Below are positions 13,409 through 35,616 of a stretch of 64,000 nucleotides of DNA, piece by piece (position 1 is the first letter of the stretch; the number at the start of each line of letters is the position of its first letter). The notes under the pieces were generated by a model. The model worked only from the letters and a program-made list of their open reading frames with translations, searched no databases and was not told where the DNA came from. A program made the position numbers and the translations under genes. The DNA lies in contig JAHDEJ010000012.1 in assembly GCA_020628865.1 (NCBI GenBank), positions 62,001 to 126,000 of the forward strand, read 5' to 3'. The DNA is from Acidimicrobiales bacterium (GTDB lineage: Bacteria > Actinomycetota > Acidimicrobiia > Acidimicrobiales > SHLQ01).

Positions 13409-13578
13409 CCGCCGTCTGCCCTACGGAGCGCCGCTGGCCGGTCGACATCGTCGGCTGCGGATCGGCCGACGTCGTCTGGGACCCCGACGAGCAGATGTTC
13501 GACTGCCGCGACTGCGGCCTGTTCTTCACGGTCGCCGGCCTCGACTCTCAACCCGAATCAGAAAGGACCAGTCCATGA
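13405..13578 (+). CDS. Small zinc-ribbon-like protein
   Basis: A 57-residue protein with an N-terminal Cys, a C-G-S segment and a CRDCGLFF knuckle, compatible with a small treble-clef or ribbon. It overlaps both neighbours by ATGA. The ribosome binding site of the next gene (AGAAAGGACCAG) lies inside its 3' end. Confidence 0.55.
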   Translation: MTAVCPTERRWPVDIVGCGSADVVWDPDEQMFDCRDCGLFFTVAGLDSQPESERTSP

Positions 13579-18318: not shown

Positions 18319-18368
18319 TTTCTCATTCCAATACCGCGTTTGCCGTATCAAACTGCTATCGTACGCTG

Positions 18369-18550
18369 CTGTGTGTGGGGACACCCTGAGAGGTGCTCCC
18401 AAAGTGGGAGTCAACCGTATGCCTGGAGGCGTCCCGCATCTTGAACACACTGCTTGAATCGTCCGACTGAGAGCGGCTCGATCGCCAAGAACTCACTGCG
18501 TGGCCTACCCGCACAGTGATAGGGGGCTGCGCCGTTGTCCCCACACACAG
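18369..18550 (+). ncRNA. Candidate structured RNA with 15-bp terminal stem
   Basis: CTGTGTGTGGGGACA at the 5' end is perfectly complementary to TGTCCCCACACACAG at the 3' end, closing a 182-nt element. Inside are further hairpins: CTCCC-AAAGT-GGGAG, GGAGGCGTCC flanked by ATGC/GCAT, and CACTGCG paired with CGCACAGTG. A TATCGT promoter-like hexamer lies about 15 bp upstream. No open frame with coding character crosses it. The overall size and closing stem recall 6S-type RNAs, but homology cannot be judged by eye. Confidence 0.6.
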
Positions 18551-18660
18551 GAACACTTCGGCGCGCCCCCGACCCACCGTTGACTCGGCAGAGAGTACAT
18601 GCAACTCGCCGGTCGGAGGTGTCTCACCTGACGTCGGATACGTCCGGCTTTGGGGGAGAT

Positions 18661-18745
18661 AGGTGGCCTTCGGGTCTGTCCCTGCCATCAGGTAGGTGAG
18701 GGGTTCCCGCACGAAACCCATGGCAGGCCCGAAGGTTCACCACCT
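18661..18745 (+). other. Long imperfect hairpin in the leader of the Ltp-like gene
   Basis: AGGTGGCCTTCGGG plus CCTGCCAT pairs with ATGGCAGG and CCCGAAGGTTCACCACCT around a loop of about 30 nt, ending in TTTAAAATT. Smaller hairpins (AGGTG-TCT-CACCT) precede it. This lies between the RNA candidate above and the ribosome binding site of the Ltp-like gene, and may be a second domain of the RNA, an attenuator or a terminator. Confidence 0.5.
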
Positions 18746-18779
18746 TTAAAATTCCCGAATCAGAAAGGACCAAACCATC

Positions 18780-19721
18780 ATGAACAACCCGCCACCTCCG
18801 CCGCCGAATCCTTCGGCTGCGATCCCGCCTCCGGCTCCGACGCCGCCGTCGAAACCGGCTCGGCCGTTCTGGAAGAAGAAGCGGTTCGCGATCCCTGGGG
18901 CTGTTGTCGGCCTTGCCGTGATCGGAGGTGCGCTCGGGGGCGTCGAAGACCCGGAACCGGTCGACACGTCAGCGGCTCCGGTTGTCGAGGAAACCGCCAC
19001 CACGGTTCCGGCCGAGTCGGACGCCGAGATCGATACCGGCGCTGAAGCGGCCGAACCAGCGGAGACGACGACCACGACGACGGAACCGCCGGCCACGACC
19101 GAGGATCCGTTGGCCGGGTTCTCCGAGCAGGAGAAGAACGCGATCGAGACAGCCGACCGATATTTGAGCTCGGGCCTGTCGCAGTTCTCGGAACCGGGCC
19201 TGGTTCGCCAGCTCGAGTTCGAGGGCTACACGGCGGAGGACGCCGCGTTGGCGATCGGTTTCCTGCAACCGGATTGGGATGCGCAGGCTGCGGCTTCGGC
19301 GGACAGCTACTACACGTCGCCGATCCTGACGTTCTCCGAGGCCGGCCTGGTGAACCAGTTGGAGTTCGAAGGGTTCACTGATGAGCAGGTCGCGTTCGGG
19401 ATGGCGTCGCTGGCCGACCCAGATTGGAACGATCAGGCCGCCCGGACGGCCGAGAGCTATCTGGACTCGGACTTCTCGGCGTTCTCCGAGGAGAGTCTGG
19501 TCACCCAGCTCGAGTTCAAGGAGTTCACCGACGAGCAGGTGGCATTCGCCATGGCGTCGTTGGGTGACGTTGATTGGCTGGAGCAGGCAGTGAAGTCCGC
19601 CGAGCGGTATCTTGACTCGAGTTCGTTCTCGTGTTCTGGGCTTGTCGATCAGCTCGAGTTCGGTGGGTTCACCGCCGAGCAGGCCACACATGGTGCGACG
19701 GTGGTGGGCCTGTGCGAGTGA
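18780..19721 (+). CDS. Membrane-anchored Ltp-family repeat protein (putative superinfection exclusion)
   Basis: A 313-residue protein after AGAAAGGACCAAACC. It has a Pro-rich cytoplasmic N-terminus (residues 1-30), KKKR then a transmembrane helix (about 36-56), a Thr/Glu/Pro linker, and four tandem repeats of about 48 residues. Each repeat carries A-x-YL-x5-FS-x2-GLV-x-QLEFEGFT-x2-QA-type consensus. This repeat (PF07553-like) is that of phage Ltp lipoproteins, which sit on the host surface and block DNA entry by other phages. Here a transmembrane helix replaces the lipobox. It is followed by a lipoprotein gene, so the two may be co-expressed from a prophage. Confidence 0.75.
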   Translation: MNNPPPPPPNPSAAIPPPAPTPPSKPARPFWKKKRFAIPGAVVGLAVIGGALGGVEDPEPVDTSAAPVVEETATTVPAESDAEIDTGAEAAEPAETTTTTTEPPATTEDPLAGFSEQEKNAIETADRYLSSGLSQFSEPGLVRQLEFEGYTAEDAALAIGFLQPDWDAQAAASADSYYTSPILTFSEAGLVNQLEFEGFTDEQVAFGMASLADPDWNDQAARTAESYLDSDFSAFSEESLVTQLEFKEFTDEQVAFAMASLGDVDWLEQAVKSAERYLDSSSFSCSGLVDQLEFGGFTAEQATHGATVVGLCE

Positions 19722-19731
19722 GAGGAATTCG

Positions 19732-20343
19732 ATGAAACGTTGGATGGCCGTGTTCGCGGTCGTGTTGGCTGGCTGCGGCGGGGGGACGGCCGATCTGGCG
19801 CAGGTGAATTGCCCGGACGGCGAGGTGCTGCAGATCGTTCGTGACGGTCGCAGCGACAGTGACCTGGCGGCGTTCTGTCCGGGTGGTGCGGTCGCGATTG
19901 ACGATCCGGCTGACGGCCGGTCGGTCGGCGAGCAGACCGCGACCACCACGACGACGACGACGACCACGGAGCCGGAACGAACGCACATGGAGGAGGTGCT
20001 GTTCACGACTTGGGTGGAGCCGACGAACGGCCAGTTGATCACGGCCCACGACTTCGGGTTGGACAACGACTGGTTCGATGCCACGGACGGCGATTCGAGC
20101 GTCGAGTGGGAAGCGACCGATGACTTCTTGCAGGTCGAGTTCGTTCGGGGCGGGTTGGCGTTCATGTCGGACGCGGAGACGATCATGGCCGACTTCGGGT
20201 TCTCGCCGGCGGTGTGGGCTCGGATGGAACGGACCCGACCGCTCGATGGTTTCCAGACGGCTGATTCGCCGGACGGGTACACGGTCACCTGGTCGTTCTC
20301 AGGAATGGACGATTCGTTCGACATCATCGTCGAACGGACGTGA
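19732..20343 (+). CDS. Lipoprotein
   Basis: A 203-residue protein with a signal sequence MKRWMAVFAVVLAGCGGG. LAGC is a lipobox, so Cys15 would be lipidated after signal peptidase II cleavage. A Thr-rich linker follows (residues 70-80) and then an extracellular domain of about 110 residues with no recognised motif. It starts 10 bp after the Ltp-like gene and ends before a strong terminator, so both form one surface-protein operon. Confidence 0.7.
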   Translation: MKRWMAVFAVVLAGCGGGTADLAQVNCPDGEVLQIVRDGRSDSDLAAFCPGGAVAIDDPADGRSVGEQTATTTTTTTTTEPERTHMEEVLFTTWVEPTNGQLITAHDFGLDNDWFDATDGDSSVEWEATDDFLQVEFVRGGLAFMSDAETIMADFGFSPAVWARMERTRPLDGFQTADSPDGYTVTWSFSGMDDSFDIIVERT

Positions 20344-20384
20344 CCGTCTGGTAGTTGCCCGGCGCTCAGTGGAGCATGCCGGTT

Positions 20385-20423
20385 GAAGAGGCCCCTTCGA
20401 GTCGCCGCTCGAGGGGCTTCTTC
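20385..20423 (+). terminator. Hairpin terminator
   Basis: AGGCCCCTTCGAG pairs with CTCGAGGGGCTTC with a one-base bulge around a TCGCCG loop. It follows the lipoprotein operon. The T-tract is only CTTCTT, so efficiency is uncertain. Confidence 0.6.
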
Positions 20424-20486
20424 GCGTCGACTGTTATCGGCGGCAGGTATTGGGGGCAAGGGTAGCTGGCCGTCTACTATCGGGAC

Positions 20487-31201: not shown

Positions 31202-31851
31202 ACGTCGACGGCGCCCGCCTTCTCGTTGTCGCCCCACATGCGGACGACGAATCGATCGGCTCCGGCGGTCTGATCGCGCGGGCGATCCGAACCGGCGGGT
31301 CGTGTCGGGTGTTCACGATGCGCATCGAGCACGACCGGCGCCGCGACGAACTCGGCGACGCCGCCCACCAGCTCGGCTTCCAATCGTGGATCTCGCAACG
31401 TTCCCGAACCCCGGTCGATGAACGCGACTCGTTCGAGATGGTCGCCGAAATCGAACAGGTCATCGGCGTCGACGAACCAGACATCGTCGTCATGCCCCAC
31501 TACGGGCACGCCCACCAGGAACATCGGGCGACCGCGAACGCGGTGTTGGCGGCGTGCCGCCCGAACAGCGGATCGGACCGGTTCCGTCCGCCGGTCGTGC
31601 TCGTCGCCGAACAACCGAACGACGTGTGGTCGTTGGGGGAGCGGCCCCGAATCCAATGGTCGATCGAGCTGACCCCCGAAGATCTCCAGGCGAAGATCGA
31701 CGCCGTACTCTGCCACTCGTCGCAGGTCCGGCCCGCCCCATCCGAACGGTCGATCGACGCAATCCGGTCGCTGGCTGCGCTGCGCGGCTCGCAGGTCGGT
31801 TCCCCGCTCGCCGAAGCGTACGAAGTGGTGCGCTGGCATCAGGCGGCCTGA
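31198..31851 (+). CDS. PIG-L/LmbE-family deacetylase
   Basis: A 217-residue zinc-dependent deacetylase. The signature APHADDESIGSGG (residues 10-22) and the later HYGHAHQEHRATANAVLAA supply the metal ligands. Family members remove N-acetyl groups from GlcNAc-type sugars. GTG overlaps the dehydrogenase stop (GTGA), so both are made together. Combined with the dehydrogenase it could convert a UDP-HexNAcA into an amino-uronic acid. It immediately precedes the terminase genes. Confidence 0.82.
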   Translation: MNVDGARLLVVAPHADDESIGSGGLIARAIRTGGSCRVFTMRIEHDRRRDELGDAAHQLGFQSWISQRSRTPVDERDSFEMVAEIEQVIGVDEPDIVVMPHYGHAHQEHRATANAVLAACRPNSGSDRFRPPVVLVAEQPNDVWSLGERPRIQWSIELTPEDLQAKIDAVLCHSSQVRPAPSERSIDAIRSLAALRGSQVGSPLAEAYEVVRWHQAA

Positions 31852-32529: not shown

Positions 32530-35360
32530 TGTCACCCCGCAAACCACCCGGACTTGTACTTCCAGGTGATCAAGAACCCGAGCCGATCCCGCAGGTGTTG
32601 CGGCTCGAAGACGGAACCCTTCATCCGTCCTGCCCGGTCGCGGACGTGCTGCGCAACGAGCTCGCCGTGATGAACAAGATCGGTGTCGAGCTCGGCATCG
32701 GCTCCAACGAGTTCGTCACCAAACGGGCCGAGATCCTCCGCGCCGCGTTGGACATCGGCTGGTGGGAACTCTGGCTGAAAGGCATTGCGACGTCGTGGGT
32801 GTCGAAGCCGTTCGCCGGCTGGCACTACCGGCTGTGGCAGTGGGCGATGGCCATCGAACCCGGCGTCCGACCGTCCCCGCTCGTCGTGTGCGCGCCCCGT
32901 GGCTCCGGCAAGGCGTTGCCTCTCGACACGCCGATCCCGACACCGGACGGCTGGACCACGATGGGCGAACTCGCCGTCGGCGACCCGGTACTGGGACCAA
33001 ACGGGTGTTCGACTACGGTCAGTGCTGTGACCGAAACCATGCACCACCGCGTGTGGCGCGTCACGTTCGATGATGGCGCCGAGATCATCGCCGACAGCGA
33101 CCACCAGTGGACAGTCATCGACCAGGCCGCCGAGGACCGCGAATGGGCAGGCCGCACCAACGGCAAGGCCAACAAGCGCGCCCGGATCCGCAAGTGGGGG
33201 CCGCAATGGTGGGCGCACCCGGCAGCGCGCACCATGACCACCCTCGACCTCGTCGAAGCCGGCCTTCACTACGACGACAGGCCCGGCCATCGGGCCCGAC
33301 GATGGGGGATCGGCCTCGGAGTCCGCGACGGCGCTGAAGCCGACCTTCCGATCGACCCGTACCTGTTCGGCTACTGGCTCGGCGACGGCGACCGCAACGG
33401 GGCACGGATCACCGTCGGCGACGAAGACCTCGGCCCGCTCCAGGTGGCGCTATTCGCGTTAGACGAGCCGGTGTCGTCCACGTACACCGACCCTCGCACC
33501 GGCGCGCACACCCTGCAGCTCGGGCCCGGCCGCCGCGGGCCGGTCGCTGGCCGGTTCCGCACACGCCTTCGACATCTCGGCGTGCTCGGCGACAAGCGCA
33601 TCCCGGCCGCCTACCTGACGGCGTCGATCGAGCAACGCAAGGCGCTGTTGTCGGGGCTCGCCGATTCTGACGGCTCCCATGCCTCAGGTGCCTCCGTTGA
33701 GATCACGCAGATGAAGAAGGACCTGGCCGACGACATCGTGGAGCTCGCCGACGGGCTCGGCTACAAGACGACCATTTCGGCGTCCGACGCAAAGCTCAAC
33801 GGCCGTGTCGTCGGCACCCGCCATCGGATCCGGATCCGCTGCCAGGAGAACCCGTTCCGGCTCGAACGCAAGGCCGAACGGTGGTCGGCGCCGAAGTTCG
33901 GTGCGGCCCGGTTCATCGAGTCGATCGAACCGCTCGAGGACCCGATCGATGTGCGGTGCATCACGGTCGACAATGACGCCGAGCTGTATCAGGCTGGCCG
34001 CCGCCACATCGTCACCCACAACACCGCGATGCTCCAGCTCGTCACGTTGGCGCTCGCTGCCCGCCGGACCCGCAACTATGCGATCTACGTCGGCGCCACC
34101 CAATCCGCAGTGGAGGACAAGGTCGCCGGCATCGGCGAACTCATCCAATCCGAGGTGATGGCGCAGGCCTACCCGGAGGTCTCGAGGATCTACACGACCA
34201 ACACCGGATCCCGCCGCGACTGGCGCAAGTCCCGTATCCGCACCAACTCCGGGTTCACGCTCGACGCCTTCGGTCTCGATCAGGCGATTCGTGGTGCTCG
34301 TGTCGACGACGACCGTCCCGGCTTCATCTGCGCGGACGACATCGAATCGCAGACCGACACCGCCTACATGACGCAGAAACGGCAGGACGCGTTGACGAAG
34401 GCCGTCCTCCCGTCCGGCTCGGACGATGCGGCGATCGTGTTCATCCAGAACAAGATTCATCAGGCGTCGCTGATGGCGCAGCTCCTCGACGGGACCGCCG
34501 AGTTCATGGCCGACCGGGTCGCCATCGGCCCGATCCGCCAGGTCGACAACCTCACCTACGTCGAACGCGAACCGACCCCCGGCGACGGCCGACGGTACGT
34601 GATCACCGGCGGCACCCCCACCTGGGAAGGCTTGGACCTGAAGACGTCAGAGCAGGAGATGAACGACCTCGGCCTCTCCGCGTTCATGACCGAGAAGCAG
34701 CAGGAGGACTGGGAACCGGAAGGCAACATGTTCCCGTCCCGATACTGGCGACACGACACGACCGACCCGACCCGACGGCGCTGGCTGTCGATGTGTCGGG
34801 CATGGGACCTCGCCGGCACCGAAGCCAAGGACGCCGACTACACGGTCGGCGCGTTGATGGGGATCATCGATGTCAACGACGAGCTCCAGGTCCACGTCCT
34901 GCACGTCGAACGGTTCCAGCTCGAGGTCGCCGGCGTCGAGCAGATGGTGAAGCACACTGCCCAGCTCGACCGGCTCGACTTCGGCCGGCACATCCCGATC
35001 GTCCTCGAAGAACAGCCCGGCGCTGCGGGCAAGGCGTGGAAGCGGCAGTGGTCCAAGCACCTGTTCGGCCATTCCGTCTGGTTCGTCCCACCACAAGGGT
35101 CGAAGACGATTCGCGCCGAACCCGGCGCCTCGGTGCTCCAGCAGGGGCTGGCGTATCTGAACGGCGGGAAGTGGATGAACCGGTTCATGCGCGAGCTCGG
35201 CGCGTTCCCGACCGGCCGCAACGACGACCAGGTCGACGCCTACGCGCTTGGCTACAACTGGATGGCTGACCGGCTCGGCGTCAACAAGAAGGGTTCGCTG
35301 CACCGCAGGTCCGCCCAGGTTCGGGTCGAGCATCGTGCAGCGCTGCCGCCCGCCTCCTAA
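32529..35360 (+). CDS. terL: Terminase large subunit containing an intein
   Basis: A 943-residue precursor; the spliced protein would be 573 residues. The ATPase domain has Walker A RGSGK-T (split by the intein between K128 and T499) and the acidic Walker B region FICADDIE. The nuclease domain has CRAWDLAGTEA, LEEQPGAAGKAWKRQW and NDDQVDAYALG with the catalytic acidic residues. It packages DNA into the capsid in an ATP-dependent manner and cuts it. The unspliced form has a disrupted P-loop and should be inactive. Start overlaps the small subunit stop. Confidence 0.93.
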   Translation: MSPRKPPGLVLPGDQEPEPIPQVLRLEDGTLHPSCPVADVLRNELAVMNKIGVELGIGSNEFVTKRAEILRAALDIGWWELWLKGIATSWVSKPFAGWHYRLWQWAMAIEPGVRPSPLVVCAPRGSGKALPLDTPIPTPDGWTTMGELAVGDPVLGPNGCSTTVSAVTETMHHRVWRVTFDDGAEIIADSDHQWTVIDQAAEDREWAGRTNGKANKRARIRKWGPQWWAHPAARTMTTLDLVEAGLHYDDRPGHRARRWGIGLGVRDGAEADLPIDPYLFGYWLGDGDRNGARITVGDEDLGPLQVALFALDEPVSSTYTDPRTGAHTLQLGPGRRGPVAGRFRTRLRHLGVLGDKRIPAAYLTASIEQRKALLSGLADSDGSHASGASVEITQMKKDLADDIVELADGLGYKTTISASDAKLNGRVVGTRHRIRIRCQENPFRLERKAERWSAPKFGAARFIESIEPLEDPIDVRCITVDNDAELYQAGRRHIVTHNTAMLQLVTLALAARRTRNYAIYVGATQSAVEDKVAGIGELIQSEVMAQAYPEVSRIYTTNTGSRRDWRKSRIRTNSGFTLDAFGLDQAIRGARVDDDRPGFICADDIESQTDTAYMTQKRQDALTKAVLPSGSDDAAIVFIQNKIHQASLMAQLLDGTAEFMADRVAIGPIRQVDNLTYVEREPTPGDGRRYVITGGTPTWEGLDLKTSEQEMNDLGLSAFMTEKQQEDWEPEGNMFPSRYWRHDTTDPTRRRWLSMCRAWDLAGTEAKDADYTVGALMGIIDVNDELQVHVLHVERFQLEVAGVEQMVKHTAQLDRLDFGRHIPIVLEEQPGAAGKAWKRQWSKHLFGHSVWFVPPQGSKTIRAEPGASVLQQGLAYLNGGKWMNRFMRELGAFPTGRNDDQVDAYALGYNWMADRLGVNKKGSLHRRSAQVRVEHRAALPPAS
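32913..34022 (+). mobile_element. Class 3 intein with LAGLIDADG homing endonuclease, within terL
   Basis: The 370-residue element begins with Ala1 (ALPLDTPIPTPDGWTTMGEL) and ends THN before Thr+1. Block B reads ADSDHQWTV with His64 and Trp66 (B:12). Block F reads DVRCITVD with Cys349 at F:4. Block G is VTHN with Thr368 at G:5. Ala1 plus the W-C-T triplet is the hallmark of class 3 inteins, where the F-block Cys starts splicing. Two dodecapeptide motifs (YLFGYWLGDGDRNG and LLSGLADSDGS) indicate an apparently intact LAGLIDADG endonuclease. It sits in the P-loop codons, a favoured insertion site. Confidence 0.9.
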
Positions 35361-35416
35361 GCTGACGCACACAGGCGACTTGATACGAATGTCTGCTATC
35401 AGGCATACTTGAGGCC

Positions 35417-35616
35417 GTGTGTGGGGACGGTGAGTGACCCTTGGTGGGGAAGGCATATTCACCCCGAATGAGGACAACTGAACCGTGGGGAGATCCAGCA
35501 GCAGCGGGGCTGATCCTGTGCAGCCCCCTGGCCGGCACGTCAAGCCGGTTGATACGCGAGACGAGCTTTCCCGCGCGCGGATGCTCGGCTTGCGGTACTC
35601 ACTGAGTTCGGTCCCC
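35417..35616 (+). ncRNA. Candidate structured RNA starting GTGTGTGGGGAC
   Basis: The 200-nt element starts with the same 12 bases as the RNA candidate at 18.37 kb. GGGGAC pairs with GTCCCC, and GTGAGT-G-ACC pairs with GGTACTCAC, giving a two-part terminal stem. Internal hairpins are GGGGCTG/CAGCCCC (35506-35527) and CCGGC/GCCGG (35532-35548). A TTGATA-N18-CATACT promoter-like sequence and a GATAC motif lie just upstream. The short plus-strand frame crossing it has poor coding character. Confidence 0.55.

Follow-up and report, generated by a model that had tools for sequence, protein, structure and literature searches.

Does the 461-bp gap that lies directly upstream of an Ltp-type superinfection exclusion gene in a bacterial prophage specify a functional RNA, and if so, would this RNA act on the adjacent gene or elsewhere? 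A first-pass annotation had described the gap (positions 18319-18779) as a large structured RNA. In this study, we analyzed its genomic setting, folding, possible transcription signals and relatives. Positions refer to the window, that is, the whole stretch of 64,000 nucleotides analyzed here (bases 62001-126000 of contig C73, 127,442 bp, in a draft genome of 5.36 Mb), unless a contig is named.

Genomic setting

Contig C73 reads like bacterial chromosome up to approximately 57.5 kb, and a prophage extends from approximately 57.9 kb to the contig end, its right end being absent from the contig. WhiB-like, RusA-like and repressor-like genes are located at the left end of the prophage and are followed by a long series of small plus-strand genes; the structural genes are listed with the other features in Table 1. 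The major capsid protein showed approximately 30% identity to those of large Gordonia, Arthrobacter and Microbacterium phages, and 31-35% identity to those of prophages in Acidimicrobiia records, which makes an actinobacterium of the Acidimicrobiia type the most likely host. A sister prophage of the same genome occupies positions 1 to approximately 62 kb (1-62200) of contig C51 in reversed orientation; the two major capsid proteins are 60% identical and left-end genes are held in common. Two prophages, both in this one genome, are known from the lineage, and no integrase was found on C73 or C51.

Several additional features of the two prophages were observed. First, the gene for the terminase large subunit (32646-35360) is split by a LAGLIDADG-type intein/homing endonuclease domain. 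Second, a promoter-like motif (TTGACA-N3-TGATAC-N8-TATCRT) recurs before many genes in both prophages, and its TGATAC box, placed between the -35 and the -10, may give this phage promoter an additional recognition element. Third, the reverse strand of C51 contains a further perfect 15-bp inverted repeat at 35195-35567 (CGTATCAAGATGTCC/GGACATCTTGATACG, 342 nt apart), the downstream arm of which overlaps the TGATAC promoter motif. Finally, a 1.3-kb stretch between phage genes (21159-22469) is of odd composition and has no good coding frame; it showed mild structure in its 5' part only, and was dropped as a candidate large RNA since this structure was not convincing.

Table 1. Features of the gap, the downstream cassette and the surrounding prophage (window positions)
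Feature	Position	Strand	Remarks
Promoter-like stretch	18345-18362	+	GTATCA (18345); TGC-TATCGT (18354-18362)
Stem A, 5' arm CTGTGTGTGGGGACA	18369-18383	+	15 perfect pairs with 18536-18550
Element interior	18384-18521	+	Predicted hairpins at ~18392-18416, 18419-18439, 18453-18489 and 18493-18519 (MFE)
Stem B, 5' arm GGGGGCTGCGCCG	18522-18534	+	12 G-C pairs, one bulged T, with 18559-18570
Stem A, 3' arm TGTCCCCACACACAG	18536-18550	+	Within the loop of stem B
Stem B, 3' arm CGGCGCGCCCCC	18559-18570	+	Pairs with 18522-18534
Two more predicted hairpins of the putative leader	18575-18659	+	~18575-18621 and 18622-18659
Long imperfect hairpin	18661-18745	+	-48.8 kcal/mol, z -4.5; followed by TTTAAAATT
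Unstructured tail with phage-type Shine-Dalgarno leader CAGAAAGGACCA	18754-18779	+	19 bases in common with 13552-13570
Ltp-type host-surface lipoprotein, superinfection exclusion	18780-19721	+	Lipoprotein_Ltp PF07553, phrog_15667/4980
Second small lipoprotein	19732-20343	+	Signal MKRWMAVFAVVLAGCGGG, from translation
Two-hairpin terminator-like element, closing the cassette	20351-20427	+	92% identical at C51 43754-43831
TTGACA-N3-TGATAC-N8-TATCRT sites	26992, 43328, 46530, 49157, 53257		Several also on the C51 reverse strand
Terminase	32646
Portal	55575
Major capsid protein	62156

Folding of the gap

When scored with a codon model of the phage itself, all ORFs and all six frames of the gap came out negative, which bears out the first-pass view that it is non-coding. 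The perfect 15-bp stem said to close 182 nt of the gap (stem A) was exact, with sharp ends and 152 nt between its arms, and the long imperfect hairpin reported before the Ltp-like gene proved to be strong. The 182-nt element was more stable than its dinucleotide shuffles (z -3.15, 1/200), the whole gap had a folding z of -3.6, and several adjoining stretches were likewise unusually stable. On the other hand, the reverse strand folded about equally well (z -3.5); thus, the strand is not fixed by folding.

The suggestion that such a stem is unlikely by chance was borne out only moderately for the stem alone: among 30,000 shuffles of the gap, just one contained a 15-bp repeat at 60-350 nt, but such repeats were present in 18 of 400 shuffles of window length (approximately 4.5%), and another 15-bp repeat is found in the window near 31326, inside a predicted gene. 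Stem A by itself is notable, not decisive.

A second, interleaved helix

Stem A did not persist when a longer RNA was folded. Its mean pairing probability was 0.98 for an RNA of 18369-18560, decreased to 0.07 once the RNA reached 18575, and was 0.001 in the full leader (18369-18779), from whose nested minimum-energy structure it is absent because an interleaved 12-bp GC helix (stem B) wins. This helix, GGGGGC(T)GCGCCG/CGGCGCGCCCCC, consists of G-C pairs throughout, and its two strands lie on either side of the 3' arm of stem A. Because that arm sits in the loop of stem B, the arms follow the order A5'-B5'-A3'-B3', with a junction of 1 nt and a loop of 8 nt, which is the layout of two interleaved helices in an H-type pseudoknot whose formation is predicted. 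Given such an arm, a helix of at least 12 pairs at this place arose in approximately 0.5% of shuffles, and the same proportion of real window positions (0.5%) had one at the equivalent place. A 15-bp stem accompanied by even a 9-bp interleaved partner occurred in none of 400 window-length shuffles.

Crude energies were -71.9 kcal/mol for A with the arms of B open, -26.0 kcal/mol for duplex B and -84.1 kcal/mol for B alone; as a crude sum, and before any pseudoknot penalty, these values make a pseudoknot of A and B energetically competitive. In nested folding, the model lets B displace stem A once position 18570 has been transcribed, and the two helices would be formed together only as a pseudoknot. 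Since the 8-nt loop is tight across a 15-bp helix, the full pseudoknot may need fraying to form, and partial fraying or mutually exclusive A and B states appear equally possible.

These frequencies also bear on the possibility that the gap has no function, the repeat and helix B being products of chance, or of gene replacement around the moron, in a degenerate spacer rich in GC. The rate of such repeats in window-length shuffles and the second repeat in the window would agree with this, as would the fact that the element is not conserved in the sister prophage. However, the rate observed for the gap has to be multiplied by that for helix B, and the unusual stability extends to the adjoining stretches. 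We consider a mere spacer quite improbable.

An explanation at the DNA level was also considered, in which recombination between the 15-bp repeats would invert the 152-bp segment and thereby turn the exclusion protein on or off, as in the cwpV switch of Clostridioides difficile. The repeats, perfect and sharply bounded, do lie in the long putative leader before the gene of a phage-exclusion surface protein, downstream of where a promoter would be placed, and helix B is available only in the present orientation; in silico inversion raised the pairing probability of stem A from 0.001 to 0.96. However, no tyrosine or serine recombinase was found on C73, where the right end of the prophage is missing, or on C51 (although RecV also works at a distance), the rest of the genome gave five tyrosine recombinase matches and zero serine ones, the arm motif has no other exact copy, and 15 bp is short. 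We regard an invertible segment as a serious rival explanation, although an improbable one.

Possible transcription signals

The TATCGT that the first-pass annotation noted upstream is present at 18357-18362, with TGC before it, and as a -10-like site it would predict transcription to start at 18368-18369, at the base of stem A. No -35 match precedes it, a consensus promoter scan found none, and the site differs from the recurrent phage promoter described above; the sequence gives a weak indication of a putative promoter at 18345-18362. At the other end of the gap, GAAAGGACC is one of 17 occurrences of this sequence in the window, most of which immediately precede an ATG (for example, at 201, 6487, 13561, 18763 and 53302). 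The longer Shine-Dalgarno leader CAGAAAGGACCA is near-constant before many genes of the C73 prophage, and the C51 prophage has it once, as GAAAGGACCC.

The long hairpin, which ends only 34 nt before the Ltp ATG, could be a leader stabiliser, a weak terminator or an attenuator. No canonical terminator was called in the gap region, including this hairpin and the TTTAAAATT that follows it, and Ltp could have a -10 of its own in TAAAAT (18747-18752). These signals would also suit an independent, trans-acting phage RNA of approximately 200-380 nt, to which Ltp would be no more than a neighbour and which would have host or phage RNAs or proteins as its targets. Such an RNA would have a promoter-like site of its own and a compact domain, and it keeps some plausibility because the strong hairpin with TTTAAAATT could end a transcript, leaving TAAAAT to serve Ltp. 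On the other hand, the lack of a canonical terminator, the short distance from the hairpin to the ATG and the absence of the conservation expected of a trans-acting class (see below) argue against it, and we regard it as rather unlikely.

Search for relatives

Rfam gave no match at the gathering threshold, and at E<=10 over 601 bases the only match was an irrelevant one to a snoRNA. No DNA relative of the element was found in 50,697 phage records, in plasmids or in 297 genomes of the order, nor at the genus or family level. A single-sequence covariance model searched against 396 genomes of the phylum, 30 related viral records and C51 recovered only the element itself; two genomes with partial or short matches at E 0.03-0.08 were attributed to chance. 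In IMG/VR, scans for the exact core revealed no contig with both arms, and a search for related loci with a portal/protease alignment yielded nothing. A descriptor of the two-helix layout matched approximately 5 Mb of sequence at the chance rate, the inspected matches being mostly in open frames or simple palindromes. A nested repeat at 46.1 kb of C73 was dropped, as it overlaps a predicted gene and folds no better than chance (z -1.3).

Thus, the proposed phage-specific RNA class cannot be claimed, because no second member was found in any set searched: strong folding and a perfect stem without conservation are no evidence for a phage RNA class. What is supported is a structured non-coding, probably transcribed element.

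The same searches bear on whether the gap holds an RNA of a known mobile element. Its long closing stem is retron-like, and both RNA-based replication origins (PMC7157519) and abiF RNAs are known to be prophage-borne. However, no Rfam family matched, and no reverse transcriptase was found on C73, from which the right end of the prophage is missing, the only one in the genome being on C44; a retron RNA and group I and II introns were rejected. Neither the RF03085 motif nor an Abi_2 or ToxN partner occurs among the neighbours, where Ltp is the only defence protein detected with PADLOC or Pfam, and an AbiF or type III antitoxin RNA was also rejected. The same applies to a replication-origin RNA, as the prophage is part of the chromosome and no parABS cassette adjoins the gap. 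Overall, a mobile-element RNA is very improbable.

The Ltp cassette and its putative leader

Downstream of the gap, the Ltp-type protein (313 aa, with four repeat stretches) is followed by the second lipoprotein, which has no family match, and by the terminator-like element. The sister prophage has a comparable arrangement: a promoter-like site, a 157-nt structured leader (z -5.0), a small lipoprotein gene and then the corresponding terminator-like element, whose alignment with the C73 copy contains one compensatory pair change. The leader on C51 has no sequence or covariance-model match to the C73 element. The terminator-like element was not found outside the two prophages; its two copies are 92% identical, compared with 30-60% for most of the proteins. 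The series of promoter-like site, structured leader, one or more surface lipoproteins and terminator gives both cassettes a moron-like appearance, and the one on C73 places a PF07553 lipoprotein in a prophage together with its own predicted control elements.

Based on the position of the gap, its Shine-Dalgarno sequence, the parallel leader in the C51 cassette and the precedent of RCd22-abiF (see below), we tentatively favor, at somewhat below even confidence, an orphan, fast-evolving, cis-acting structured 5' leader RNA of the prophage Ltp exclusion cassette. Neither this reading nor the interleaved helix was part of the first-pass annotation. Transcription would start at 18368-18369, which would make the base of the 15-bp helix the 5' end of the RNA. 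The first 202 nt (18369-18570) would then form the interleaved two-helix domain, either as a pseudoknot (A plus B) or as competing states in which A forms first and is replaced by B as RNA polymerase advances. Three more stable hairpins would follow on the 3' side, with the Shine-Dalgarno sequence in an open tail. Acting in cis, the leader would most likely protect the 5' end of the mRNA and set read-through, and hence the dose of exclusion protein in lysogens; we infer this effect on the Ltp level from the arrangement of the cassette.

Several observations count for a cis-acting leader. The spacing of the -10-like site would put the start of transcription at the base of stem A, the gap folds strongly, and interleaved stems such as the modelled A and B are rare in shuffles. 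By analogy, Ltp of phage TP-J34 is transcribed in the prophage and regarded as a moron (PMC3952083). Counting against it are the single sequence with no homologue found, the -10 without a -35 and unlike the phage's recurrent promoter, the about equal folding of both strands and the tight 8-nt loop. In addition, the long hairpin with TTTAAAATT could end a separate transcript and TAAAAT could serve Ltp, and the Ltp-type genes of three Gordonia phages have no such leader, their upstream gaps being 71-124 bp.

The cis-acting leader could be extended to a stronger proposal, in which the exclusion gene is under a co-transcriptional switch, with the 15-bp stem forming first and the 12-bp GC helix interleaving with or displacing it. 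If the repeats also recombine, the orientation of the segment would decide whether the GC helix can form, and the prophage would carry phase-variable phage exclusion. We consider this proposal quite improbable. Prophage control of the dose and timing of superinfection exclusion has been little studied beyond a few model phages, and a pseudoknot-capable or invertible long leader before Ltp, if true, would be a concrete and testable control device.

Comparison with known systems

The element resembles 6S RNA in its similar size and long closing stem, and the first-pass annotation had suggested that it could be 6S-like. This assignment was rejected: the fold is branched and lacks the single-rod shape in which a large central bubble mimics an open promoter, stem B pairs outside stem A, and no 6S family matched in Rfam even at E<=10. 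The RNA-based replication origins of the extrachromosomal mycobacteriophage prophages Alma, LadyBird and RedRock (PMC7157519) are likewise non-coding RNAs of actinobacterial prophages; in contrast, the prophage studied here is integrated, and its putative RNA lies 5' of Ltp and not beside parABS.

With regard to the protein, Ltp of Streptococcus thermophilus phage TP-J34 is also a prophage-borne PF07553 lipoprotein with presumed lysogenic expression and its own promoter and terminator. The protein found here is longer and paired with a second lipoprotein, and the passages of PMC3952083 considered here mention no structured leader RNA.

The invertible switches of C. difficile offer a parallel at the DNA level. 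The cwpV switch (195 bp) and the flagellar switch (154 bp) both have 21-bp repeats, and the cwpV product is a phage-resistance surface protein with superinfection-exclusion-like activity (PMC2784873, PMC5386303, PMC4737114). As in the gap, where the promoter is putative, a promoter is followed by inverted repeats 152-195 bp apart within a long leader. The repeats here are 15 bp and perfect instead of 21 bp and imperfect, no recombinase was found nearby, a GC helix is interleaved, and the segment is known from one assembled orientation.

Finally, RCd22-abiF of C. difficile prophages (Rfam RF03085) is a leader RNA with its own promoter, and it controls the phage-defence gene behind it in cis, through termination versus read-through (PMC12373285). 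The putative leader on C73 is longer (411 nt versus approximately 100 nt), lacks the abiF motif, an Abi_2 protein and a canonical terminator, and would act in cis only by our inference. What both systems have in common is a prophage-encoded structured RNA directly 5' of a phage-defence gene, with a promoter of its own that is putative in the present case.
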